Origin: an uncultured Burkholderiales bacterium
GTDB taxonomy: Bacteria; Pseudomonadota; Gammaproteobacteria; Burkholderiales; Burkholderiaceae_C
Length of the DNA stretch: 64,000 bases
Reading direction: 5' to 3'
Assembly: GCA_903933115.1 (NCBI GenBank)
Contig: CAIZIT010000033.1
Location: 1-64,000 of the forward strand
This document shows, in pieces, positions 4,692 to 42,875 of this stretch (the stretch's first letter is position 1; each line of letters opens with the position of its first letter). The position numbers and the translations under genes were made by a program. The notes under the pieces are model-generated. The model saw only the letters and a list, made by a program, of their open reading frames with translations. It was not told the origin of the DNA and searched no databases.

Positions 4692-6803
4692 TCACTTCAA
4701 AACAATGTATTGCGGACTGGCCATGACCAGGGTCAGGGCGGCATATATTCGATTCAAGACCCCTGCAGCCGTGGTGACCGAGATGGTGTCCAAGGCCGTT
4801 TTCATGGTCAGCATCACATCGGCACTGAGCTCTTGGGCACACAGCAAGGTGTTGAGTTCATTGAGCAAGGCTGTGGAGTCTTTGGCGATGGCAACAAGGG
4901 CGGTGTAGTCGGCCTTGACGTCGCCAACGCCTGAACCGGAAACAACCCTTTGCATGAAGTTGATGTAGGCCGCTACGGAGGTCTCATCCACGATTTGCAA
5001 CTCCGGCGCCAAAAGACCCGCATCGGATAGGGCTGTGTTGGGCGGCACGTAGCCGGGCCGAAAGAAATTGAACACCGTGGCAGATCGTAAGGGGGACTGC
5101 CCAAGCGCTGTACTGGTACTGGACAAATCCCCTACAGCCCAGGCATTGGAAGCGGAGGTCGCGCCAAAGGCACGCGCCCAATTCAAGAAACGGACCACGG
5201 GCTCACGAATTTTGCCCACAAAGGGGCTTTGCGTGATCAAGCTCATGTCTCTGGCCTCTGGGTCCATCAAAATGGCTTTGATCACCGCCTTCAAGTCGCC
5301 TCGCACCGAGGCGCCGTTGTTGATGAACGCATTGGCCACGCGGTTGACGTAACTGGGGCTGGGGTTGCTGCACACCAAACGTTGAATCATTTGTTTGGCC
5401 AAAAAGGGGGGCAAATTGGGGTGATTAAAGACCGTGTCCAAGGCCACCTTCAACGACTGCGTGGCCGAGCTGCCAGAGGGGATCGTCACACCCAGAAAAG
5501 TTTTTGCACCTGTCTCGTACCTCGAACTCACCTGCACCATGGGGCGAAGCATCAGCCCTGGTGGGTAAGGACTGGTGAGTCCGCTCGTGTCCAGATCCCA
5601 GCCCGTGAAGACCCTTGCCAAGCCACTCACATCGGCTTGCGTGTAGGTCTCAAGTGGCACGCCCGCGCTCATTTGCGGCGTGCCGTCGTTGTTGAGCTTG
5701 ATGAGGCCAATCGTAAAGAGCTGCATGAGCTCTCGGGCGTAGTTCTCATCGGGTTGACTACCCGTCACCGTATTGGCTTTGATGTTGCCCTTGTAGGTGA
5801 GGTAGTAGCCCATTGCAGGGCACAAGGTGATTTGCTCGAGCAAGGTGCGGTAATTGCCAAATGCATTTTGCTCCAAAATATCCAAATACTTGGCAACGCC
5901 AAATTGTCTCCACTGGCTGGGCACCCCCAAAACAGACAACACGCACAACTCCGACAGCATCAAAACCACCCGTTGCCTCAAGGCATCGTTGGAGGTGATG
6001 AGTTTTCGCCAAACCACGTTGTCCATGCCGGCGGTGCTATTGATGTTCGCCGCGTTGTCGTACCCCATGGCGAGCATCATCTCGGTGTAGGACTGCGTGA
6101 TGGGCATGGAGGTTTGCGCATCCAACCACTGTGAGACGGAGCTTGCTGTGAAGGCGTTCAACTGATCTCTTGTAAAACCCAGCGTGGCTTGATGCAAAAA
6201 CCGAGACGCCGCATTCACCCCAGTCAAAGAGCAAAGCCCTCCATTGACCAAGCAAGCAAAGCCCTGTAAGGACCCCACTCGTGTGAGCGAATTGGCGCTG
6301 ATGGGCCCGAGCACAAACACATCCCCACTGGAGTCCCCTTGCGCACTGACACCCAAATAGGTCTGCGTGCTCGGGTAATAACGGTACAAATAGGTGTTGT
6401 AGACCAAATTGGTCGAGCCGCTTGGAAACAAGGTGGGGTATTGAGTTTGTGCCCAATCGAAAAACGCATTGGCATCCGTCGTGTTGCTGGCAGCCCCTAC
6501 GGTGGGGGACGCACTGAGCAAACTTTTCTTGGTCAACTCGGGGGGAACTGTGGCCAAAAGGGAGAAATTGTCCTGGGCCAAACTGGGGTCGGTGAGCGCG
6601 CGTCCCGAACTCGGATCCACGCCCGCTCCGCCACAGCCCGACAAAAGGGCCAAAGCGCTGGACGCGAGTCCCAAATCCTTCCAAGACAAAAAGGGAGCAA
6701 AGCCGTCCTCTTCGGACGCAAGATGCGCTTCATGTCCAAGTGTTTTGGAGACCTGTGGCGCGTTTCGCAAGCTGCATTCCTCTTGATGGTTTAACAAAGC
6801 CAA
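4692..6803 (-). CDS. DUF1800 domain protein, probable exported lipoprotein
   Basis: 703-residue protein of the DUF1800 family, function unknown. Conserved blocks visible include LHQATLGFTRDQL, PDENYARELMQLFTIGL and ADVSGLARVFTGWD. An N-terminal hydrophobic segment ends in LLSGC (C57), a plausible lipobox. With the ATG at 6803 the stretch before it is ~40 residues, long for a signal peptide. An alternative TTG at codon 39 would give MSWKDLGLASSALALLSGC, a well-proportioned lipoprotein signal, but no good ribosome binding site is seen for it. It is co-transcribed with the DUF1501 gene (8-bp gap). Confidence 0.88.
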   Translation of the reverse strand: MALLNHQEECSLRNAPQVSKTLGHEAHLASEEDGFAPFLSWKDLGLASSALALLSGCGGAGVDPSSGRALTDPSLAQDNFSLLATVPPELTKKSLLSASPTVGAASNTTDANAFFDWAQTQYPTLFPSGSTNLVYNTYLYRYYPSTQTYLGVSAQGDSSGDVFVLGPISANSLTRVGSLQGFACLVNGGLCSLTGVNAASRFLHQATLGFTRDQLNAFTASSVSQWLDAQTSMPITQSYTEMMLAMGYDNAANINSTAGMDNVVWRKLITSNDALRQRVVLMLSELCVLSVLGVPSQWRQFGVAKYLDILEQNAFGNYRTLLEQITLCPAMGYYLTYKGNIKANTVTGSQPDENYARELMQLFTIGLIKLNNDGTPQMSAGVPLETYTQADVSGLARVFTGWDLDTSGLTSPYPPGLMLRPMVQVSSRYETGAKTFLGVTIPSGSSATQSLKVALDTVFNHPNLPPFLAKQMIQRLVCSNPSPSYVNRVANAFINNGASVRGDLKAVIKAILMDPEARDMSLITQSPFVGKIREPVVRFLNWARAFGATSASNAWAVGDLSSTSTALGQSPLRSATVFNFFRPGYVPPNTALSDAGLLAPELQIVDETSVAAYINFMQRVVSGSGVGDVKADYTALVAIAKDSTALLNELNTLLCAQELSADVMLTMKTALDTISVTTAAGVLNRIYAALTLVMASPQYIVLK

Positions 6804-7391
6804 GTCTCCATTTTTTTACAGTCTTTGGGGCTTTCAGTTTTGCACTTCTCTGTGGGTTCAAATCGTCCCATGCACTTGAATCTTTAAGTGAAAGCGAAAA
6901 AAAGAACGTCCTGAACGAAGAGCCAATGAACTCAAGAGCGCGAGAAGGAGGCTGACATGGAGCATGCTTTTAAAACGTTTAAAGCAAGCGGAACACCCCC
7001 CATCGAGAGAAGTTCACTGGCAACGCACTCGAGCCGTATGGATGCATTAAAACCCAGAAGCCCCTCTTACACAAGGGTGTAAACACCCAATTGGTGTGCA
7101 TGCACCAGGAGCACCTTTTGTCATCAGGGTGTCATGCTGACGGTATCGCGCTGACGGTATCGCGCTGACGATAAGGGGCTGACGATAAGGGGCTGAAGGT
7201 GTGGGACTGGTAAGTGGATCAAGATGAAAACCCTCCAGCAACTCCAAGCACTGCACATCATGGATCCAACCATGAGCACGCAAAGCATTGGCACCTCTTG
7301 AGCGAAGAGGCCGAATCGCCTGCGGGTCTTTGCAAGTGTGTGTAAAAAAAAGGGGGGGGAGGTGTGAGTGGTTGAGTGATGAACCGTTGAG
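6804..7391. other. Intergenic region between the DUF1800 gene and tRNA-Leu
   Basis: 588 bp with no supported gene. It holds a GGGTGT-AA-ACACCC inverted repeat (7075-7088), a four-copy 14-bp tandem array (listed separately), and an A8-G8 homopolymer double run at 7344-7359. Read on the minus strand the latter is C8T8 just downstream of tRNA-Leu and may help end that transcript, although no hairpin directly precedes it. The leftward DUF1800/DUF1501 operon promoter should lie at the left end, but no clear hexamers are seen. Confidence 0.5.
7136..7191. repeat. Tandem repeat, 14-bp unit, four copies
   Basis: Two perfect copies of GCTGACGGTATCGC (7136-7149, 7150-7163) are followed without a gap by two perfect copies of GCTGACGATAAGGG (7164-7177, 7178-7191), then a truncated GCTGA. 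The two versions share GCTGACG and differ in the second half, so duplication probably occurred twice. Non-coding, between DUF1800 and tRNA-Leu. Confidence 0.9.
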
Positions 7392-7478
7392 TGGTGCGAC
7401 TGACTGGACTCGAACCAGCACAGCATTTCTGCCGATAGGACCTAAACCTATTGCGTCTACCAATTTCGCCACAGTCGC
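7392..7478 (-). tRNA. tRNA-Leu (anticodon UAG)
   Basis: An 87-nt class II tRNA on the minus strand. The acceptor stem GCGACTG pairs with CAGTCGC, followed by A73 and an encoded CCA. The anticodon stem ATAGG/CCTAT encloses the loop TTTAGGT, giving anticodon UAG for CUA and other CUN codons. The T arm reads GGTTCGAGTCC, and a long variable arm is present as expected for leucine. A TAGAAT hexamer at 7492-7497 is a possible -10 element. Confidence 0.96.
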
Positions 7479-7686
7479 ATCCTGGGTATAGATTCTAAGT
7501 GCTTTTTCTCGTCTGCTTGAGCTCAGGATGTCGCAGAAAAAAGAAATCACCTTAAAACCACAAAACCCAGCACTTGAGCAATGAATTCAAGGTCTTCGAA
7601 AAAAACAAAACAAAGGTCTCGCCTCAGAGCGAAAGAAATACACCGGAGCTCAGGCACGAGGACGATAAGCTTGGTAGCATGGAGGG

Positions 7687-8439
7687 GTGAAACATTATGA
7701 AAACTTCCCCGTCGCCTCCTGGCTTTGCCCGCCCGCTCTTCGAGCGCCCATCATGGCCATTTACCACTTCGCCAGAACCGCTGACGACTTGGCCGACGAA
7801 GGCGAGGCGCTCGCCAGTGAAAGACTTCAAAATCTCAACATCTTCAAAGCGCAGCTTCGGCTGTGTTTCAAGGACCCTAAAAGTCTTCTCGAGCCCTACC
7901 GCGACTTGTTTCTCGATTTAAGCCAAGCCATTGAAGATTTTCGGCTCCCCCCGGCTCCACTTTTTTCATTGCTCGAGGCGTTTGAACAAGACGTGATGTA
8001 CACACAAGCCGAGAGACGCTATGAAAGCAAGGAAGCCCTTTTGCGGTATTGCTCCAAATCGGCCAACCCCATTGGGCGACTGCTTTTACACTTGTATGGT
8101 GTGCATGAAGCGGATTCGCTCCGAAGGAGTGACGCCATTTGCACCTCTCTTCAATTGATCAATTTTTGGCAAGACTTGAGTGTGGACATTCCGAGGGGGC
8201 GTTTTTATCTCCCCCCAGATACCGATTTGGCGTATGAACTGAGCTTTGCACATGCGCTTATGATTCAAGGCGCCCCCTTGTGTGAGCGCTTACCGGGGCG
8301 TGCCGCATGGGAGCTGAAAATGGTGGTCCAAGGTGGCCTCAAAATTCTTCAAAAATGCAGAAAAATCAACACCTTTGAACACCGCCCCGTGATCAGGCTG
8401 TATGATTTTCCATCGATGATCTTGCGTTCGCTGTCTTAA
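7687..8439 (+). CDS. hpnC: Squalene synthase HpnC (hydroxysqualene-forming branch)
   Basis: Trans-prenyltransferase of the squalene/phytoene synthase family; in the HpnCDE route it acts after HpnD on presqualene diphosphate to give hydroxysqualene. 250 residues starting HYENFPVASWL, the typical HpnC N-terminus. Both aspartate-rich motifs are visible: RTADDLADEGEA and FWQDLSVDIPRGRFYLP. The only in-frame start near the conserved N-terminus is the GTG at 7687, because an in-frame TAG lies at 7675-7677. A GGAGG at 7681-7685 sits unusually close to it. First gene of hpnC-hpnD-hpnE, 99 bp before hpnD. Confidence 0.92.
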   Translation: MKHYENFPVASWLCPPALRAPIMAIYHFARTADDLADEGEALASERLQNLNIFKAQLRLCFKDPKSLLEPYRDLFLDLSQAIEDFRLPPAPLFSLLEAFEQDVMYTQAERRYESKEALLRYCSKSANPIGRLLLHLYGVHEADSLRRSDAICTSLQLINFWQDLSVDIPRGRFYLPPDTDLAYELSFAHALMIQGAPLCERLPGRAAWELKMVVQGGLKILQKCRKINTFEHRPVIRLYDFPSMILRSLS

Positions 8440-8538
8440 AGCCAAGTCCCCAAAAGGCCTAGAAGTCCATCGCCCAAAGCCCCACTCACTGGGGTTCTCA
8501 TCCCCAAAAGACCCTCAGTCAATGGCACAATCACCACC

Positions 8539-9378
8539 ATGACGCCTCAGCAATATGTTCAAGACAAAGCCGCCTCCTCAGGCAGCAGCTTTTATTACGC
8601 ATTTCTCTTCCTCCCCAAGCCCAGGCGCTTGTGCATCACGGCCTTTTACGCCTTTTGCCGCGAAGTCGATGACGTGGTCGATGAGGTGAGTGAACCCGGC
8701 GTGGCGGCCGCCAAGTTGGCTTGGTGGCGTCAATCCGTTTTGGATGCTTTTGAGGGGCAAATTCATCATCCTGTTTTAAAAGCCCTCATGCCTTGGTGCG
8801 ATGAGTTTCAAATACAGAGCCACCATCTCTTGTCGATCATCGAGGGCTGCGAGATGGATTTGACCCAAACCCGGTATTTGGACCGCGCCAGTTTGGAGCG
8901 CTATTGCCACTTGGTGGCAGGCGTTGTCGGGGAGGTCTCGGCTTTGATTTTTGGTCAGCAGTCTGCCCAAACCCAAGCCTACGCACATCAATTGGGTCAA
9001 GCCTTTCAATTGACCAACATCATCCGCGACGTGGGTGAGGATGCCATGCGGGGGCGCATTTACTTGCCCATCTCGGAGTTGCAGCAGTTCGATGTCAAGG
9101 CCCATGAAATCCTCAACAGGATTGACTCTGAGCGCTTCAAAGCTTTGATGGCTCACCAAGCCTCAAAGGCCAAAGCGCTCTACGCAAAAGCCTTTGAACT
9201 CTTGCCAGATGTGGACAAACGGGCTCAAAAACCGGGTCTCATGATGGCGAGCATTTACCGAACGCTTTTGGATGAAATTGAGAGGGCTGAGTTTCCCGTG
9301 CTGAACCAGAGGGTCTCCCTCACGCCCATTCGTAAACTCTGGCTGGCTTGGAAAGTACAAGCCCTGGGGCTTTATTAA
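8539..9378 (+). CDS. hpnD: Presqualene diphosphate synthase HpnD
   Basis: Condenses two farnesyl diphosphates to presqualene diphosphate, the first committed step to squalene and hopanoids. 279 residues. The first Asp motif is CREVDDVVDEV and the second is TNIIRDVGEDAMRGRIYLP, both diphosphate-Mg2+ binding. SSFYYAFLFLPKPRR is the typical N-terminal block. The start at 8539 (MTPQQYV) matches the family. It is followed 8 bp later by hpnE. Confidence 0.94.
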   Translation: MTPQQYVQDKAASSGSSFYYAFLFLPKPRRLCITAFYAFCREVDDVVDEVSEPGVAAAKLAWWRQSVLDAFEGQIHHPVLKALMPWCDEFQIQSHHLLSIIEGCEMDLTQTRYLDRASLERYCHLVAGVVGEVSALIFGQQSAQTQAYAHQLGQAFQLTNIIRDVGEDAMRGRIYLPISELQQFDVKAHEILNRIDSERFKALMAHQASKAKALYAKAFELLPDVDKRAQKPGLMMASIYRTLLDEIERAEFPVLNQRVSLTPIRKLWLAWKVQALGLY

Positions 9379-9386
9379 GACCTCAA

Positions 9387-10823
9387 ATGAAACCCAGGCT
9401 CACCATTGTCGGCGCTGGCTGGGCGGGCCTAAGTGCGGCGGTCAAAGCCACCCAAAGCGGCTTTCAGGTTCACCTGATTGAAGCCTCTTCTTCTCCGGGT
9501 GGACGCGCCAAGAGCGTGATGCACCAAGGGGTTCAATTTGACAACGGCCAACATGCTTTGCTCGGGGCTTATTCGGCAACGCTTGAGTTGATGAAATCGA
9601 TCGGACTTGACCCCCAAGAGCTCTTTGATGAGCAAAACCTCATGTGGTCTTACCCCAGTGGAGAGCCCTATGCTTTGCCAGAAGACCGCTATCCTTTGAA
9701 GTTGGCAAGATCGGTTTTGATGAGTCAGCGCTTCGATGCGCTTGAAAAACTCAAACTCTTAAAGCCTGTGCTCGTTGGACTCCAGCTCCAGCTGGGCATG
9801 GGCGCACGCGTTTCAACCCCAAGTCCATTCGGCTCTAACCTTGTGGCCAGTGGTCATGCCGGTGAGCATGACCGTGCACTAGCCCCTGTTCTCTCATCAA
9901 CCCACTTGGCGCGCGACACGACCGTGGCGCAACTCTTTCAAGGGGTCTCGCGCTCGGTGATCCAAGACCTCATCTCCCCTTTGTGTTTATCGGCCATGAA
10001 CACGCCCCTGGAGCGCGCCAGTGCAAATGTTTTTATTCGGGTCTTGCGGGACGCGTTCATGGACCCTCCCCGCTCCTCCAATTTTTTATTGCCCAAAAGA
10101 CCCTTGAGCGAGATCATGCCCGAGAGAGCCGTTCAGTGGCTTTTGGCCCAAGGGGCCATGGTGGAGATGGGGCGAAGGATTGAGGACTTGCGGCAACTCG
10201 ATCCTGAAGGGCCTTGCATCTTGGCACTGCCCCCTTGGCAAGCGGCCACGCTCACCCAAGAGAGCTATCCCGAATGGTCGCAATGCGCAAAAAACTTAAA
10301 GCACAATGCCATTGCCAGTGTCTACATCAAAGGCCATGCAAGGAGGAAGCACTTGGGGCCGAAGGCTTTACGCCAAGCCAACACCGCCCTCCGGGCCGTG
10401 GTCTGCTTTAACGAACACCTCGAACTCGATCGTTGTGTTCATCCCCAATTTGGTGTTCAACTCGAAGCTCCACAAAGCGCACCCACAGATGGGCCCGAGC
10501 GCCCGACTCCACAAATGGACTTGGCGGCCCAGCATTGGGCGTTGATCGTGAGTGTGGCCGATCCGCTCAAGCGTCAAGAGATCATTCAAAATGCTTTATT
10601 GACAGCGCAAAAACACCTGGGACTGGTGGATGCACAGATGCTCTTTTGCACGGTCGAAAAACGGGCCACTTTTTCATGTGAAGCCCACACGCCAAGACCG
10701 CCCGGTTTCATCGCAAGAGGCCTATGGGCGTGTGGGGACTATGTGAAGGGGCCCTATCCCGCAACGCTTGAGGGCGCTGTTCGCTCGGGGTTAAATGCCG
10801 TTCAAATGCTCTTGGACACTTGA
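9387..10823 (+). CDS. hpnE: Hydroxysqualene dehydroxylase HpnE
   Basis: FAD-dependent amine-oxidase-family enzyme that reduces hydroxysqualene to squalene. 478 residues from the ATG at 9387; the frame is open from 9348, but that part overlaps hpnD. The dinucleotide fold IVGAGWAGLSAA starts at residue ~6, with GGRAKS about 30 residues later and a C-terminal RGLWACGDYVKGPYPATLEGA block that closes over FAD. No squalene-hopene cyclase is in the window, so the pathway end product cannot be decided here. Completes the hpnCDE cluster. Confidence 0.92.
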   Translation: MKPRLTIVGAGWAGLSAAVKATQSGFQVHLIEASSSPGGRAKSVMHQGVQFDNGQHALLGAYSATLELMKSIGLDPQELFDEQNLMWSYPSGEPYALPEDRYPLKLARSVLMSQRFDALEKLKLLKPVLVGLQLQLGMGARVSTPSPFGSNLVASGHAGEHDRALAPVLSSTHLARDTTVAQLFQGVSRSVIQDLISPLCLSAMNTPLERASANVFIRVLRDAFMDPPRSSNFLLPKRPLSEIMPERAVQWLLAQGAMVEMGRRIEDLRQLDPEGPCILALPPWQAATLTQESYPEWSQCAKNLKHNAIASVYIKGHARRKHLGPKALRQANTALRAVVCFNEHLELDRCVHPQFGVQLEAPQSAPTDGPERPTPQMDLAAQHWALIVSVADPLKRQEIIQNALLTAQKHLGLVDAQMLFCTVEKRATFSCEAHTPRPPGFIARGLWACGDYVKGPYPATLEGAVRSGLNAVQMLLDT

Positions 10824-10951
10824 GCTCTGATGAACTTGAACGCTTGAGCTTTTTTCCATCAAGGGCTCCATTTGAAACACCGGCACTGAAGCAGCCATGC
10901 GCTCCACCATCCCCATGCACCCATGGACTCGTTCACAGCAAAGTCTGCGTC

Positions 10952-11653
10952 TCAAGCCTTCTCATCACGCAACAAGTCCACCAACTCACCCAAATCTCGG
11001 ACCATCCAAGGACACTCGCCCTCGCCCGGCCAAGTGCGTTGCTCACGGTTGACCCACACACAAGGCATCTCCAGACCCCTCGCACCCCAAATGTCCGTGT
11101 GCGCATCGTCTCCAATGTGTAAGAGCTCGTCTGGCTCCAAATTCAAACGCGCCAGGGTGTGTTGAAAAATTCTGGGGTCGGGCTTGGCCACGCCAAAATC
11201 TTGTGCACTGATGGCGTGAGAAAAATACGCCCCCAAGCCCACTTGCTCAATGTTGGCATTGCCATTGGACAAAGCCACCATAGGGTATCGATCCTTCAAA
11301 GCGTCCAAAGCGGGGATCACATCGGGATACATCTGAACCGTTTGACGCGCTTGAAAGAACACTTCAAAGGCATCCTCCACCCCATGTGTGGGCTCCCCAG
11401 CCCTTTGGAGCACCTCTCGAATGAGCTGCTTTCTGATGGCACTCAAATCGTGAAGTTGGTCCTTGAATTGGATCTTCAAACTCTCTCTGAGCGAGCTCAC
11501 CAGGGCTTGATTTTGATAGACCGGTAAGGCGTTGGGCGTGTTTTCACGAAACCAAGCCGTGAGTGCGGCTTCTGCCGCGACCAATGTGGGCCCAATGGGC
11601 CACAAAGTATCATCTAAATCAAAAGACAAAGCCCGGATTTTTTGGATATTCAT
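10952..11653 (-). CDS. HAD-IA family hydrolase (YjjG-like phosphatase)
   Basis: 233-residue haloacid-dehalogenase-superfamily phosphatase. Motif I is SFDLDDTLW (nucleophile and acid/base Asp), motif II is VALSNGN, motif III includes the Lys of AKPDPRIF, and motif IV is HIGDDAHTDIWGA. The helical insert after motif I marks subfamily IA. Resemblance is to nucleotidases/phosphoglycolate-type phosphatases; the substrate cannot be told. It is divergent from hemH, with only 22 bp between the two starts, so their promoters must overlap each other or the coding regions. Confidence 0.88.
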   Translation of the reverse strand: MNIQKIRALSFDLDDTLWPIGPTLVAAEAALTAWFRENTPNALPVYQNQALVSSLRESLKIQFKDQLHDLSAIRKQLIREVLQRAGEPTHGVEDAFEVFFQARQTVQMYPDVIPALDALKDRYPMVALSNGNANIEQVGLGAYFSHAISAQDFGVAKPDPRIFQHTLARLNLEPDELLHIGDDAHTDIWGARGLEMPCVWVNREQRTWPGEGECPWMVRDLGELVDLLRDEKA

Positions 11654-37980: not shown

Positions 37981-39414
37981 ATGCCAACCAATGCCTCTAT
38001 CAAACCCATCGGCGAGACCTTCTTTGAAGGCAATACGATTGACGGCTTTCTCGTTGGCAAAAAATTACACGACGGTGGAATGGCCAACATCTTCAGTGCC
38101 ACCAAAGAGGGGATTGATGAGCCCATTGTTTTAAAAATCCCTAAAGTGGGACCCAACCAGCCCATTGAGAGCTTCATCGGTTTTGAAACGGAATTGAACG
38201 TTTTAAACGCGCTCACCAGTACTTATGTGCCCAAGCTCTTTGCGTCTTCAGACATCACAGAAACACCTTATCTGGCGATAGAGAGAATTTCTGGCCAATC
38301 TCTGCAAGCTCAAATGGACAGTGGCAAGTCGTTCAGCATGGACGAGATCATCTTGATTGGCGTTCAACTGTCAACTGCATTGGATTCCATTCACCAAGCA
38401 GGTGTGATTCACCACGATTTAAAGCCAGGCAACATCATCATCGATGATGAATCAAAATTGTGGCTCATTGACTTTGGTTTGGCACACCATCATTTTTTAC
38501 CTGATTTGCTTGCTGAGCAAGATCAAAAGGGCATTGGCTCTGCGCCCTACGTCTCTCCAGAGGCCATCTTCGGTATTCGGGATGATGCCAGAAGCGATCT
38601 TTTTTCAGTGGGTGTGATTTTGTATGAGTTGTTGACCGGCATTTTGCCTTTTGAAGAGACTCACTCGTTAAAAGGTCTGAAGAAGCGCCTTTGGGAAATA
38701 CCGATTCCGCCAAGAAAGCTTCGCCCAGAGACACCCGCTTGGTTGCAGGAGATTGTCTTGAGCGCTCTTGAGCCCAAAGCGGTTCAACGCATTCAAAGTG
38801 CATCCCAGTTCAGACATTTTTTAAAGTTTCCCAAAAGCGTTGATTTGACAGAACGCTCAACTTGGATAGAAACGGCGCCCCTCAAAAAACAAATTTATAA
38901 ATATTTCCAAAACATAGGTTATCAACCTCAATTTGCAGCGGATCGACCTCAACTCCACTCTGGCGTTCACACGATTTTGGTGGCTCTTGAAACAGAGGAC
39001 TTCGATGCCCAGGAGTTCTCTTTTCTTGAACATGCTGTGAAGGACACCTTGAAATCACATGCCCAGGCCAGAGTCATTTGTATCAGTGCTTTGACGCACC
39101 TCAGCGATGAAATTGAAGCTTCAGAAATCGACAGTCACAGCGGTCAAGTCAGAGCCCATTTGGCTCAATTGAAAAATTGGTCAGCCTCCCTCGACTGTCC
39201 ATCAGATCGCTTGACTTGCCACATCATCATCACGCAAGATCCAGCTCAAAAAATTATTGATTTCGCCCAATCTAATGAAGTCAACTTGATCATCATTGGT
39301 GCATCAGAAGCGCACAGGTCGCTCTTACCCGGCAAGAAATCCACCATGTCTGCAATCGTTGAAAACGCACCCTGCAGCGTCTTTGTCGCCAAGCCCCCAA
39401 AGTCATCGATGTGA
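37981..39414 (+). CDS. Hanks-type Ser/Thr kinase fused to a C-terminal UspA-like domain
   Basis: 477-residue two-domain protein. The kinase domain (about residues 20-285) has a glycine-rich loop LHDGGMANIFS, K52 in VLKIPK, catalytic D146 in IHHDLKPGN, DFG at 164-166 (LIDFGLAHH) and SPE in the activation segment (SAPYVSPEAIF). The residue before the catalytic Asp is His rather than Arg, so it is a non-RD kinase. From about residue 325 a universal-stress-protein-like fold follows (TILVALETEDFDAQEF to NLIIIGASEAHRS and NAPCSVFVAKPP). No membrane segment, so cytoplasmic. It starts 1 bp after the phosphoesterase gene. Confidence 0.9.
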   Translation: MPTNASIKPIGETFFEGNTIDGFLVGKKLHDGGMANIFSATKEGIDEPIVLKIPKVGPNQPIESFIGFETELNVLNALTSTYVPKLFASSDITETPYLAIERISGQSLQAQMDSGKSFSMDEIILIGVQLSTALDSIHQAGVIHHDLKPGNIIIDDESKLWLIDFGLAHHHFLPDLLAEQDQKGIGSAPYVSPEAIFGIRDDARSDLFSVGVILYELLTGILPFEETHSLKGLKKRLWEIPIPPRKLRPETPAWLQEIVLSALEPKAVQRIQSASQFRHFLKFPKSVDLTERSTWIETAPLKKQIYKYFQNIGYQPQFAADRPQLHSGVHTILVALETEDFDAQEFSFLEHAVKDTLKSHAQARVICISALTHLSDEIEASEIDSHSGQVRAHLAQLKNWSASLDCPSDRLTCHIIITQDPAQKIIDFAQSNEVNLIIIGASEAHRSLLPGKKSTMSAIVENAPCSVFVAKPPKSSM

Positions 39415-39551
39415 TGCGCTCCAAGTTTGAGAACTTCATCGATGAAGCAAGACAATTTTGGATTCAAGTGGTGTTCAATCCAATGATCACAAATGTGGAT
39501 GTTCGGCTGCAGAACCTGCCAGTTTACGTACTGGCTCGTAAGCCTGCGAAC

Positions 39552-39830
39552 TCAACCAAGCAGCCCCGGCTCAGACAAAAGCTTCTTGAGCTTAGGCTTG
39601 GCGCTCACGGGCTGATCCAGTGCAGCCTGAAACGCGAGCCACTTCTCGTCACTCAGCTCGAAACGGGCGCAGTCAGCCAAGGTCTGGTTGGCCGCGATGA
39701 TGCCCGCATCAAGCAGAAACTCGCTCACATTCTTGTGCGCCACGCGCGCCGCTTCCTGAAGCAATTGCTTCACGGGCGAACTGGCGCGCACATCGATGCG
39801 CTCAGATTTGGAATGAATGACTGCGGTCAT
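39552..39830 (-). CDS. DUF1778 (TacA-type) antitoxin, orphan
   Basis: 92-residue protein of the DUF1778 ribbon-helix-helix antitoxin family. SERIDVRASSPVKQLLQEAA is the typical opening, followed by NVSEFLLDAGIIAANQTLAD. These antitoxins normally precede a GNAT acetyltransferase toxin (TacT) that modifies aminoacyl-tRNA. Here only 137 bp separate its stop from the kinase gene end and no toxin frame is found there, so the toxin appears lost. The frame is open to 39881, but the ATG at 39828-39830 fits the family. Confidence 0.83.
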   Translation of the reverse strand: MTAVIHSKSERIDVRASSPVKQLLQEAARVAHKNVSEFLLDAGIIAANQTLADCARFELSDEKWLAFQAALDQPVSAKPKLKKLLSEPGLLG

Positions 39831-40153
39831 GGCAACCCTTTTTTTGGATGTTTCTCCATCGTAGCGTCCGGACAATGTCATGACAAGCGTTTTTTAATTA
39901 CTGTACCCATCATGCACCGCCAGCACCTCCAAAGCGCCAACCAAAACGGCGGTGCAACATCAACAAAAAAAGCGTGCAATCGGTACGGTTCAAATTTGGG
40001 TTTTGAACGCGCTAGGTCAAGAGGTTTTGAGCACAAAGCCGTCTCAACAGTTCGATCACCCCGTCAAAGGGTGACTTTCTTCAAGATCGGGAGTAGCTTT
40101 GGAAGAAACAAGTCTTTCAGATCAATCACTTGCAAACAGGCGTTTGAAGGATT

Positions 40154-40256
40154 GAAAGAAGTCTTGGCGGGGCAGAACAACCTTCATCACAAACCGCCTA
40201 CATTTCTGATGGGCGAGCAAATCAAGCACTTGGTGTCCAGTTCATCTTTCGAAATG
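40154..40256. repeat. Direct repeat copy A flanking vapBC
   Basis: Matches copy B at 41148-41248 in the same orientation with small gaps. Shared runs are GTCTTGGCG, GGCAG, CATCACAAACCGC, GATGGGC and AAGCACTTGG, in the same order and spacing; roughly three quarters identical by eye. Copy A lies about 105 bp upstream of the vapB start. Confidence 0.8.
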
Positions 40257-40329
40257 TCGATATATTGATGTAACTCGCGCCGCTGATCGACTTGATATTT
40301 GGCTTTACATTCGCTTCCTCCTGGATTAA

Positions 40330-40345
40330 GATGTACACGTACATC
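40330..40345. promoter_or_regulatory. Probable VapB(C) operator
   Basis: GATGTAC-AC-GTACATC is a perfect 7-bp inverted repeat with a 2-bp spacer, 15 bp upstream of the vapB ATG. VapB antitoxins bind such palindromes as dimers, with VapC as co-repressor, to autoregulate their operon. An AAAGG ribosome binding site follows at 40350-40354. Confidence 0.65.
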
Positions 40346-40360
40346 CACAAAAGGTTCGCC

Positions 40361-40597
40361 ATGGCCAACACCAAACTTTTCAAAAACGGTAACTCGCAAG
40401 CCGTTCGCATTCCTGCCGAACTTGCCTACAGCTCTTGGGACCTTGATCTGGTCATCGAGCGACAAGGGGACGAGTTGCGCATCCGTCCGGCCCAGCGCCG
40501 CATGGGCGATGTGTTGGGCAAACTTGCCAAGTTCTCACCTGACTTCATGGCCCAGGGCCGGGGCGAAAACATGGAGGGCGAGCGCGAGACTTTATGA
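40361..40597 (+). CDS. vapB: VapB-type antitoxin (AbrB-like DNA-binding)
   Basis: 78-residue antitoxin that neutralises VapC and represses its own operon. TKLFKNGNSQAVRIPAEL is the AbrB/SpoVT swapped-hairpin DNA-binding signature of VapB/MvaT-type antitoxins. The frame is open from 40292, but the ATG at 40361 follows a ribosome binding site (AAAGG) and the operator dyad. The stop overlaps the vapC start by 4 bases. Confidence 0.92.
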   Translation: MANTKLFKNGNSQAVRIPAELAYSSWDLDLVIERQGDELRIRPAQRRMGDVLGKLAKFSPDFMAQGRGENMEGERETL

Positions 40598-41007
40598 ATC
40601 CGAAGTACATGCTCGACACCAACATCTGCATCTACCTCATGAAGCATCAGCCTCCTGAGGTGCGCGAGCGGTTTGCCCAGTGCTTTGTGGGCGACGTTGT
40701 TATTTCTGCGGTGACTTTGGCTGAGCTTGAATTCGGTATCGCCTGCTCAAGCACTGCGGCACAGGAATCCAACCGGTCAGCACTGGAGAGCTTGCTCGAC
40801 GACATCAAGGTTGCGCCTTTTGATGCACAAGCTGCCAAGGCCTACGGCCCCATCCGCGCAGCCTACAAAGATCGCAACCGCGATGCCCTTGACAAACTCA
40901 TCGCATCCCATGCGGTCGCTTTAGGAGTGACACTGGTGACCAACAACGAAGCCGACTTTGTGAACTACGCTGGATTGAGTGTTGAAAACTGGGTCAGTAG
41001 TCATTGA
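40594..41007 (+). CDS. vapC: VapC-type PIN-domain ribonuclease toxin
   Basis: 137-residue PIN endoribonuclease; relatives cleave initiator tRNA. The acidic metal-binding residues are D8 (YMLDTNICIY), E44 (SAVTLAELEFG), D100 (RDALDKLIASHA) and D121 (TNNEADF), so the active site looks intact. It overlaps vapB by 4 bases. The module is bracketed by direct repeats A and B, suggesting it moved as a unit. Confidence 0.93.
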   Translation: MNPKYMLDTNICIYLMKHQPPEVRERFAQCFVGDVVISAVTLAELEFGIACSSTAAQESNRSALESLLDDIKVAPFDAQAAKAYGPIRAAYKDRNRDALDKLIASHAVALGVTLVTNNEADFVNYAGLSVENWVSSH

Positions 41008-41147
41008 GATTGTGAATAAGGTCTTGTGCCGGTTCACAGACATTGAGGCCTATGAAGAAGCCTGTCTGATCCGGAAAGTGTTCCAGCAGCGCACCCAAGG
41101 AGGCCCCGAACGGGTTGTCAATTGTTCGAACGACTTGGAATCAGTTC

Positions 41148-41248
41148 GAAATAGTCTTGGCGCGGCAGCCCTGACTACATCACAAACCGCATAAAAGTTT
41201 GATGGGCAAGCCAATTAAGCACTTGGCGTCCGATACATCATTCTAAAG
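41148..41248. repeat. Direct repeat copy B flanking vapBC
   Basis: Second copy of the repeat at 40154-40256, same orientation, starting about 140 bp after the vapC stop and ending just inside the 3' end of the GNAT gene. The offset between copies is about 994 bp. See copy A for the shared runs. It lacks the inverted core sites of integron attC sites and the terminal inverted repeats of insertion sequences. Confidence 0.8.
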
Positions 41249-41744
41249 ATTGAGACGGCAGCAATTTGCGATGACGACGAAATGCTTTTAGGGCATCGTA
41301 CAACGCCTCTGATGAGACTTCGAAATGCAACCTACCGTCAACACTTGGTAATTGAATAAACCCTAGTTTCTCGTGCAGGCGGACAGATTTGTAATTACGG
41401 GCGTGAACTCGTGTACGAAGCATAGAGGCTGGCCAACACTTTATACATTCAGTCGCCTGTTCAAGAAGTGAACGCAGAACCAAGGATCCAATGTAATTTG
41501 GGTGTATTTGAAGAGATGGAACGTAAAACTTGCCATCTACTGGCGGGATGTACTCTAGGTATGCAAGTAGTTTGTTGTTTCTTCTCACCTGAAGAATATT
41601 TGCTCCATTTGCCAGTTCACGACGCAATCCCTCAAATCGAATCACTGGATCAAATAATCCGTTTTCCGACACAAAATGAGATGCCATATTTAACCGATCA
41701 AGTTCGACTATTTCTTCTTCGAGTTTTGAGAGCGGTTTTTTCAT
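41238..41744 (-). CDS. GNAT family N-acetyltransferase
   Basis: 168-residue acetyltransferase-like protein. The C-terminal half carries the GNAT pattern: a beta-strand FYVPSLQIHP, a helix with LVLRSLLEQA, then RVHARNYKSVRLHEKLGFIQ, the typical N-x-x-(S/A)-x-x-x-x-x-K-L-G-F motif near the end. Base composition is more AT-rich than in the flanking housekeeping genes. The start is uncertain: an ATG at 41744 or a GTG at 41822. It is not adjacent to the DUF1778 antitoxin and is unlike the usual TacT N-terminus, so I do not call it a toxin. Confidence 0.7.
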   Translation of the reverse strand: MKKPLSKLEEEIVELDRLNMASHFVSENGLFDPVIRFEGLRRELANGANILQVRRNNKLLAYLEYIPPVDGKFYVPSLQIHPNYIGSLVLRSLLEQATECIKCWPASMLRTRVHARNYKSVRLHEKLGFIQLPSVDGRLHFEVSSEALYDALKAFRRHRKLLPSQSLE

Positions 41745-41878
41745 CAGTGCTTCAGATATCAATTTATTATTTGACACAAGATTCAGAAAAATCCAATTCT
41801 CGGTGAACAAAAAAAAGCGCACAGGGCAGCAGAGATAAGCATCAACTCCGCTGAGCCACTAAAAAAAACTGAGAAACT

Positions 41879-42171
41879 TTACGTAGGCTCCAAGACTTCA
41901 GAAATATCACGCGCCCCGTGCACTATACGAACGATTGTGATCTGCTCTGTAGTGGACTCAAAAAAATCACGTAGTTGCCATGCGCGCATGAGCGCAAGTC
42001 ATCAGAAACTTCGGGCCGCAACCGATAACCCGCGGAATTGAGACAAATTTTTTCGCAATGCGCACGCAATTCAGCCACGAAAGTTCTGGCGCGTATTAGA
42101 TTATCAAGTGCAATATAGTCGCCTATCTCCTCAAGATCGAACGCAGCCAATGGAGTTATTAGTAACTGCAT
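41879..42171 (-). pseudogene. parE: ParE-type toxin, frameshifted in a homopolymer
   Basis: The first ~70 codons encode a RelE/ParE-fold toxin (TPLAAFDLEEIGDYIA, YRLRPEVSDDLRS, GNYVIF). After YVIF the frame breaks at a run of seven T (A7 at 41960-41966 on the plus strand) and stops at 41923. With eight T the translation continues FESTTEQITIVRIVHGARD, the conserved ParE ending, to a stop at 41879-41881 (97 residues in total). The toxin is therefore probably inactive, unless the run length varies or the sequence is wrong here. It overlaps the parD stop by one base (TAATG). Confidence 0.82.
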
Positions 42172-42437
42172 TAGCGAGCTTGGCGAGTCGCCTGCTGCGC
42201 ATATTTGTCTTCTAATCGATCAAACACGGGGGCCGCAGCAAGCGCTGCGCCGCTCGCCTTGCCTTCGGCGATATCATTTCTCAGCGCTTGGAGTTGTATG
42301 GCCTGCTGGCGCTCGGTGTCCTCGAGCAATCGCAGCCCAGCACGGACGACTTCACTGACGTTGTTGTAGCGACCGCTTTCAACTTGGTCGCGGATAAAGG
42401 TCTCAAAATGCGGGCTTAGAGCAACGCTGGTGGGCAT
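42171..42437 (-). CDS. parD: ParD-type antitoxin
   Basis: 88-residue ribbon-helix-helix antitoxin. SVALSPHFETFIRDQVESG, then RYNNVSEVVRAGLRLLEDTE matches ParD/CopG N-terminal DNA-binding domains, and the remainder is the flexible toxin-binding tail. It starts at 42437 with an AGGAG-like sequence upstream and is coupled to parE by a TAATG overlap. A dyad that could be its operator lies just upstream. Confidence 0.9.
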   Translation of the reverse strand: MPTSVALSPHFETFIRDQVESGRYNNVSEVVRAGLRLLEDTERQQAIQLQALRNDIAEGKASGAALAAAPVFDRLEDKYAQQATRQAR

Positions 42438-42707
42438 GAGGCTCTCCTAACCGTTAATAACTATTATTATTTATCAGCCAGCACGGCTTGTCAAGCTTAT
42501 CAGGGTGCGTTTACTGTTATCAAGGAAAAGACCAAGCCAAAACAATCTGGACAACGAAAATTAATTCAGGTTGCTTCAAAGCCTGTTTTGCCTTCAGCCG
42601 CAAATCCACGGCTCGGAACCAAGTCAAAAAAAGTCATTAGGTTTTGAGACAAACGGGGTTTGAGACGCCTTTCTCGGGCTGCAGCAGCAGGTCGCAGTTA
42701 GGAGCCC
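42438..42707. other. Intergenic region between parD and the tRNA-Ser terminator
   Basis: About 270 bp (345 bp to the tRNA itself). It holds the AT-rich parD promoter region with dyad TAATAA-CTA-TTATTA and otherwise no recognisable gene. No partial copy of the tRNA-Ser 3' end, which would mark an attachment site, was found here or elsewhere in the toxin-antitoxin cluster. Confidence 0.5.
42455..42469. promoter_or_regulatory. Possible ParD operator dyad
   Basis: TAATAA-CTA-TTATTA is a 6-bp inverted repeat with a 3-bp spacer, 18 bp upstream of the parD start and within an AT-rich stretch suited to a promoter. ParD proteins autoregulate by binding short palindromes in this position. AT-rich dyads arise easily by chance, so this is tentative. 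Confidence 0.4.
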
Positions 42708-42736
42708 AAAACAAAAAGCCCCGCTTGATGCGGGGC
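42708..42736 (-). terminator. Intrinsic terminator after tRNA-Ser (and lysC)
   Basis: On the minus strand GCCCCGC (42736-42730) and GCGGGGC (42724-42718) form a perfect 7-bp GC stem with a 5-base loop, followed directly by TTTTTGTTTT. It ends the leftward transcript that includes tRNA-Ser. Confidence 0.88.
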
Positions 42737-42782
42737 CTGAGGCTGCCTCAAGTCCTACTGAGCAGGTTTGAGGTCTTTGTAC

Positions 42783-42875
42783 TGGCGGAAACGAAGGGAT
42801 TCGAACCCTTGATGAGGCTCAACACCCCATACTCCCTTAGCAGGGGAGCACCTTCGGCCACTCGGTCACGTTTCC
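42783..42875 (-). tRNA. tRNA-Ser (anticodon GCU)
   Basis: 93-nt class II tRNA with encoded CCA. The acceptor stem GGAAACG pairs with CGTTTCC, the discriminator is G73, the anticodon stem CTCCC/GGGAG encloses CTGCTAA (anticodon GCU, reading AGC/AGU), and a long variable arm and GGTTCGAATCC T arm follow. It begins 11 bp after the lysC stop and probably shares its transcript. Its 3' end faces the toxin-antitoxin cluster. Confidence 0.96.

Follow-up and report, generated by a model that had tools for sequence, protein, structure and literature searches.

A vapBC toxin-antitoxin pair in an uncultured Burkholderiales bacterium lies between two imperfect direct repeats, which raises the question of whether the pair was caught between dispersed repeats or travels as a unit with ends of its own. 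In the first-pass annotation of the window (the whole stretch of 64,000 nucleotides that was analysed), the layout was taken to suggest either a module that recombination at flanking repeats of about 100 bp had captured or duplicated, or a cassette-like unit.

Repeats, core, and ends of the vapBC unit

The repeats bracketing vapBC are real. The copies at 40160-40254 and 41153-41247 align over 95 bp without gaps, at an offset of 993 bp and with 78% identity, and their 74 identities out of 95 compare with a mean of 41.9 and a maximum of 48 for the best 95-bp match in 60 trials, wherein both 500-bp repeat surroundings were shuffled in two-base blocks. The repeat is dispersed: within the window's genus, copy A has matches in 11 of the 84 genomes. 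Between the copies lie vapB (40361-40597, + strand), whose antitoxin product matches Pfam MazE_antitoxin (1.3e-7) and an NCBIfam VapB subfamily above cut-off, and vapC (40594-41007, +), encoding a PIN-domain toxin (Pfam PIN, 2.4e-18; NCBIfam VapC-like, below cut-off).

Exchange points were sought by comparing positions 39400-42500 of the window with 69 loci from a vapC search and with loci from other searches, five window copies being left out. Homology to the window repeatedly started at 40165 and repeatedly stopped at 41162, and the hexamer TGGCGG is common to both points. Among the 69 vapC relatives, only nine (L004, L007, L010, L011, L012, L015, L018, L065, and L071) have homology next to vapBC that extends to either exchange point; most of the others match only from approximately 40267-40378 to approximately 41007 and represent vapBC in other settings. 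To the right of TGGCGG lies either the body of the repeat or a tRNA-Ser 3′ end, the gene being on the opposite strand, and to its left either a second conserved sequence, ending in TTGTTCGAACGACTTGGAATCAGTTCGAAATAGTCT, or another flank. These sequences indicate that each repeat is a left end (LE) starting at the core and that a right end (RE) occupies the bases leading up to 41158. The core TGGCGG is itself the 3′ end (CCGCCA) of tRNA-Ser genes, read on the other strand.

So delimited, the vapBC cassette is one unit at 40165-41157. It opens with LE-A (40165-40260, +), composed of the core at 40165-40170 and the repeat body of copy A, and closes with an RE (41083-41157, +) that contains TTCGAAC...GTTCGAA. 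Directly ahead of the RE is the tail of an excisionase-like helix-turn-helix (HTH) gene (41007-41083, +), recognised from an alignment at 40988-41083 that covers residues 79-110 of the complete HTH protein at 66% identity. Copy B is the left end LE-B (41158-41255, +), with which the neighbouring unit begins and whose first six bases, TGGCGC, are a mutated core. With core B mutated and the HTH gene truncated, the window's vapBC copy looks worn, and its right side probably makes a poor substrate.

The proposal of capture or duplication by recombination between the repeats fits these ends badly: the exchange points are confined to the 6-bp core at the left edge of the repeat, the sequence left of the core is unlike between A and B, and whole units with exact ends recur among unrelated neighbours. 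Together, these three features point to site-specific recombination at tRNA-Ser-type sites and not to homologous recombination over 100 bp. Judged from the sequence, the repeats are the left ends of mobile units and not duplicated flanks. The alternative offered by the first-pass annotation, a cassette-like unit, was the right one, as the repeat also flanks other toxin-antitoxin genes and cargo of other kinds, and LE-bearing loci that lack vapBC were found (L156, L152, and L157). Its remarks that integrase and attC-type core are missing are borne out as well: a tyrosine-recombinase profile has no match in the vapBC unit, and the six single strands of three junctions show no excess of attC-like folding over shuffles (z −0.40 to +0.35).

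Past LE-B, the window contains a GNAT acetyltransferase gene (41238-41822, −), which is cargo of the presumed second unit, followed by parE (41923-42171, −) and parD (42171-42437, −) and then by flank T (42690-42782, +), a terminator-like sequence that touches a tRNA-Ser(GCT) gene (42783-42875, −; ARAGORN), the 3′ end of which forms the core at 42783-42788. On the opposite side, flank F (40066-40164, +) lies to the left of LE-A. The parDE stretch is also found after an LE in L011, L082/L156, L105, and L108/L152. Flank T occurs at 14 distinct loci, in every one of which the core comes next, and T and core are followed by an LE at seven loci and by LE-like variants at three (one also scored by the LE profile). 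Relatives of flank F occur next to tRNA-Ser(GCT) (88% over 127 bp) as well as at the distal array end in L345; L086/L360 has one ahead of TGGCGG, and in L084 one stands with no core. Because flank T is itself mobile and precedes an LE elsewhere, T may be read as a second right-end type, and the window as a series running from tRNA-Ser through a unit of T, ParDE, GNAT, and LE-B to the unit of RE, vapBC, and LE-A and on to a unit that starts with F, the units on either side of the vapBC cassette being ones that we infer. On the same reading, the array would be old, and its right ends would be of more than one type. That the flank at the tRNA-Ser gene of the window is an empty site was considered and rejected, flank T being mobile, and no true pair of empty and filled sites is shown. 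Further left, at 39552-39881 (−), the window carries a gene for a TacA1-type antitoxin (Pfam, 1.7e-23), and the open reading frames listed next to it include no acetyltransferase toxin; this stretch also occurs beyond the vapBC cassette in L004/L201 and ahead of vapBC in L014.

Cassettes with common ends at tRNA-Ser genes, in tandem arrays, and across genera

In the window and 20 loci, 34 cassettes of 843-10,827 bp were delimited, with TGGCGG present on the LE side in 33 and on the right-hand side in 33. The LE comprises approximately 95 bp, about 35 bp of which are the most widely shared, and the RE approximately 75 bp; the two are not terminal inverted repeats, as the identity of LE to reverse-complemented RE (mean 0.40, maximum 0.48) equals that of shuffled sequence (0.40). 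The RE is usually preceded by the small excisionase-like HTH gene, which is whole in 22 of the 34 cassettes, partial in six, and not detected in six, and which in better-preserved copies encodes a protein of approximately 110 amino acids. This protein is conserved across cargo types (17 aligned copies, mean column identity 82%) and matches PHROG phrog_66, "excisionase and transcriptional regulator" (8e-7 to 2e-4), and, below cut-off, Pfam HTH_17 (2e-4); no NCBIfam match was obtained, and its fold model (mean pLDDT 58.7) was too poor for structure searching. Three of the cassettes (L157, L231, and the tRNA-proximal unit of L345) lack a typical RE and run straight up to tRNA-Ser. In L230, L347, L183, L202, and L226, the sequence after RE or T is a variant left end (TGGCGGnGCAGn..., ...CCAACC...), so that the LE has more than one class. 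A reading frame spanning RE and LE was considered and dropped, as most right ends examined contain a stop codon in that frame.

The cargo, as assigned with Pfam and PADLOC, is broad. It includes VapBC, a chromate transporter with ChrB, TctC, a GntR-aminotransferase, a TonB-receptor plug, a periplasmic binding protein, a CoA-transferase, a short-chain dehydrogenase, CARF-RtcR, and a low-molecular-weight phosphatase-type protein with an MIP channel, the last of which is arsenic-like in our own reading. Different cargo may occupy the same kind of site between the same kind of ends: in two genomes, the chromate genes of L148 and the CARF-RtcR regulator and genes of unknown kind of L149 stand beside the same seryl-tRNA-synthetase-like gene and tRNA-Ser(CGA). 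Direct RE-core-LE junctions link four consecutive cassettes in L344 and five in L342 (Limnohabitans sp. 2KL-51), all in one orientation, and five is the longest run of consecutive cassettes in one stretch. The L149 cassette (6702-11526, G047:C90), whose CARF-RtcR type regulator was called by PADLOC at 1.1e-183 and has four neighbours that match no PADLOC family, is a candidate defence or RNA-repair operon. In addition, L184 (IMGVR_UViG_3300042869_001541) starts with the tail of an HTH gene, an RE, a core, and an LE, followed by L149-like cargo; given this start, what IMG/VR lists as a "viral" contig may be an array of cassettes instead of a phage.

A census of junctions, wherein profiles covering 75 bp to the left and 94 bp to the right of the core were trained on the 34 cassettes (the RE profile taking in nothing right of the core, and its training set including the three units that end directly at tRNA-Ser) and duplicates were removed, returned 92 distinct junctions: 35 with LE only, 31 with RE and LE, and 26 with RE only, counts that are not unbiased and are not population frequencies, since the loci were collected by similarity to the elements. 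The RE is followed by an LE in 31 of its 57 junctions, by a tRNA-Ser 3′ end in 20, and by something else in six, three of which carry TGGCGG-N8-GGATTCGAA, a tRNA-Ser-like piece; TGGCGG is present in 55 of the 57. ARAGORN called a tRNA-Ser at 19 of the 20 tRNA junctions, and in the remaining one (L003) the contig stops inside the gene. The anticodons at the cores are GCT, CGA, TGA, and GGA.

Individual cassettes are common to different sites and different genera. A chromate cassette in the array of genome G893 is 99.4% identical over 5,101 bp to a single copy at tRNA-Ser(CGA) in G011, a genome of a different genus, and the segment in common ends on one side at the left core and on the other 23 bases beyond the right core, within the tRNA or tRNA-like piece. 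A TonB-receptor cassette in the G880 array, which stands at tRNA-Ser(GCT), recurs at tRNA-Ser(CGA) in G913 with 95.4% identity over 3.9 kb. The vapBC cassette has full-length copies in three other genomes, 87-95% identical and with other neighbours, namely at tRNA-Ser(GCT) in L201 (94.9%), ahead of a ParDE unit in L011 (92.5%), and within the 2KL-51 array of L342 (87.5%). In the shared cassettes, homology ends at the cores, tRNA-like bases excepted.

With respect to distribution, the RE query matched 10 of 84 genomes of the window's genus, and samples of the family and the order yielded 11 of 399 and 12 of 399, respectively, half of those in the order being short, weak matches; some of the carrier genomes are fragmented MAGs. 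The HTH-RE query picked out 29 of the 90 genomes in G850's genus (a few over just 40-50 bases); several of the 29 have many copies on a single contig, and these supplied the arrays of L344 and L342. Plasmid and phage collections returned no DNA match to the cassette ends. The HTH protein found three plasmid records, all partial and below 60%, and, in IMG/VR, three loci, where the exact pattern found one right end and zero left ends.

A proposed recombinase acting in trans and the competing explanations

The findings are best explained by integron-like accretion of cassettes at tRNA-Ser genes, driven in trans by a site-specific recombinase, with the window as an old array; we put the probability of this reading at about 0.78. 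The recombinase, most likely a tyrosine recombinase, would be supplied in trans and would recombine the core of a free cassette with that of a tRNA-Ser gene or of a junction within an array, while excision would be steered by the HTH protein. A profile search for tyrosine recombinases gave zero matches in the 34 cassettes. The profile was built from PF00589 matches of these genomes and may miss diverged enzymes (a 439-aa recombinase of L356 has an E-value of just 4e-4), and the 21 of 21 sequences recovered in its control were all its own training sequences. Among the carriers, G000, G021, and G052 each encode two PF00589 proteins, both as long as XerC/XerD, and other carriers have more. Serine recombinases (PF00239) were rejected as the common resident enzyme, since 10 of 18 carriers, including the genome of the window, have none. 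No tRNAs were seen at 18 integrase loci, and a scan of both sets of integrase loci found one tRNA-Val, no RE, and one LE-like motif attributable to chance. Distant HTH_17 homologues had no integrase in short loci nor in four larger stretches.

One enzyme offers a lead, and only a lead. L356:246-893, beside an array locus, encodes a tyrosine recombinase of 216 aa that consists of the catalytic domain only (Pfam Phage_integrase, 8.7e-25) and scores far below integron-integrase cut-offs. That this enzyme, carried by a helper element, moves the cassettes would supply the preferred explanation with a named helper; we consider the idea possible but doubtful. In G899 and G947, approximately 140 bp separate the start of the gene from a junction of the form RE|TGGCGG, the far side of which mimics a tRNA-Ser 3′ end (TGGCGG-N8-GGATTCGAA), and a 56% relative adjoins F|TGGCGG in G031; against this, G899 and G947 represent one shared chromosomal locus (95% identical over 5.7 kb), relatives at eight further loci are accompanied by neither an LE or RE match nor a tRNA-Ser, G000, G021, and G052 show only genes of XerC/XerD size, and the family is widespread, with 1,205 plasmid records matching at less than 60% identity. 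As a separate observation, L362 (3097-18194, G659:C7) packs three short tyrosine recombinases into 15 kb, interspersed with two longer genes (451 and 455 aa) that look like their partners; this would seem to be another, distinct family of small mobile elements.

Non-autonomous transposons, whether Tn7-like or MITE-like, that duplicate a target of 5-6 bp and prefer tRNA-Ser 3′ ends would produce the same junction pattern, TGGCG(G) then being a target-site duplication, and would agree with cassettes in which the tyrosine-recombinase profile detects no enzyme on board. The missing terminal inverted repeats nevertheless speak against ordinary transposons, and since Tn7-like elements show target immunity, stacks of up to five units sit poorly with them, so that we regard this explanation as unlikely. 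Recombination of the cassettes by resident XerC/XerD, as in IMEX elements, draws support from the three carriers in which only two PF00589 genes, of XerC/XerD size, were found; it is improbable all the same, considering that core and arms do not appear to resemble dif and that other carriers possess more tyrosine recombinases. Homologous recombination or duplication between dispersed repeats, for all that the repeat is dispersed in the genus, is very improbable in view of the 6-bp exchange points at one repeat edge, the unrelated flanks left of the core, and the sharing of whole units with exact ends. An ordinary integron or CALIN array, which tandem same-orientation cassettes of mixed cargo with no integrase nearby might call to mind, can hardly be credited, inasmuch as the crossover lies at a tRNA-Ser core with conserved sequence on both sides of it, the lack of attC-like folding at the three junctions folded speaks against integron cassettes, and no GTTRRRY/RYYYAAC boxes were seen by eye.

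Relation to known systems

Integrons are the textbook route by which bacteria gather single gene cassettes. The present family has same-orientation tandem arrays, broad cargo, a 99.4% identical unit common to two genera, and no tyrosine recombinase found aboard, and whether it amounts to a second natural integron-like system is, in our estimation, evenly poised. Such a system would consist of pooled cassettes with double-stranded ends, most with a directionality factor of their own, that a recombinase encoded elsewhere captures at tRNA-Ser and stacks into arrays, and that freshwater Burkholderiales of different genera exchange. It would partly explain why toxin-antitoxin, metal, and defence-type genes cluster downstream of tRNA-Ser in such bacteria. 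Limnohabitans sp. 2KL-51, an isolate with a public sequence, makes the question of a trans-acting recombinase testable, and likewise the role of an excisionase-like gene on an integrase-less cassette.

A literature search, judged from titles and abstract openings, found no description of a tRNA-Ser cassette system. CIMEs and IMEs have att sites without integrase and accrete at a tRNA gene, and are usually seen as decayed single relatives of one ICE. The cassettes resemble CIMEs in having on both sides an att core derived from a tRNA 3′ end and in their stacking at a tRNA gene, and the tyrosine-recombinase profile had no match in the 34 units; they differ in forming a family of diverse cargo whose ends are shared across genera. 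Tycheposons are described as elements of 4-200 kb at tRNA-Met in Methylophilaceae with an xerD-type tyrosine recombinase present (PMC10872708). Both are tRNA-associated cargo elements of streamlined aquatic bacteria, but the present units measure 0.8-10.8 kb, lie at tRNA-Ser, and have no tyrosine-recombinase match. The islands at ssrA in Dehalococcoides stand in tandem at one RNA gene with direct repeats of its 3′ end (20 bp of ssrA), 16 of them with a serine-recombinase module and 15 without an integration module, the latter having been proposed as cis-mobilizable elements (PMC3146451). Tandem stacking at an RNA gene and a 3′-end repeat are common to both, whereas the cassettes have a core of 6 bp, use several tRNA-Ser genes, and gave no tyrosine-recombinase match in 34 units. 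Integron cassettes and CALINs form arrays of small cassettes in one orientation, with the integrase not nearby and the cassettes presumably moved in trans (PMC11389934). Our arrays share the single orientation and the lack of a nearby integrase; unlike CALINs as described there, they have tRNA-Ser attachment, two conserved double-stranded ends, no attC-like folding, units of up to 10.8 kb with operons, and an excisionase-like gene on most units.

Two further loci were observed at other tRNA genes. L289 (7727-13251, G017:C25) has a tRNA-Phe, after which come an HTH_17 relative of 172 aa, a gene resembling TctC, and genes that look catabolic by eye, with no integrase match, and is possibly a parallel family at another tRNA. 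L276 (G403:C2) has an HTH_17 relative, 61% identical to the query, in like geometry ahead of tRNA-Ala.
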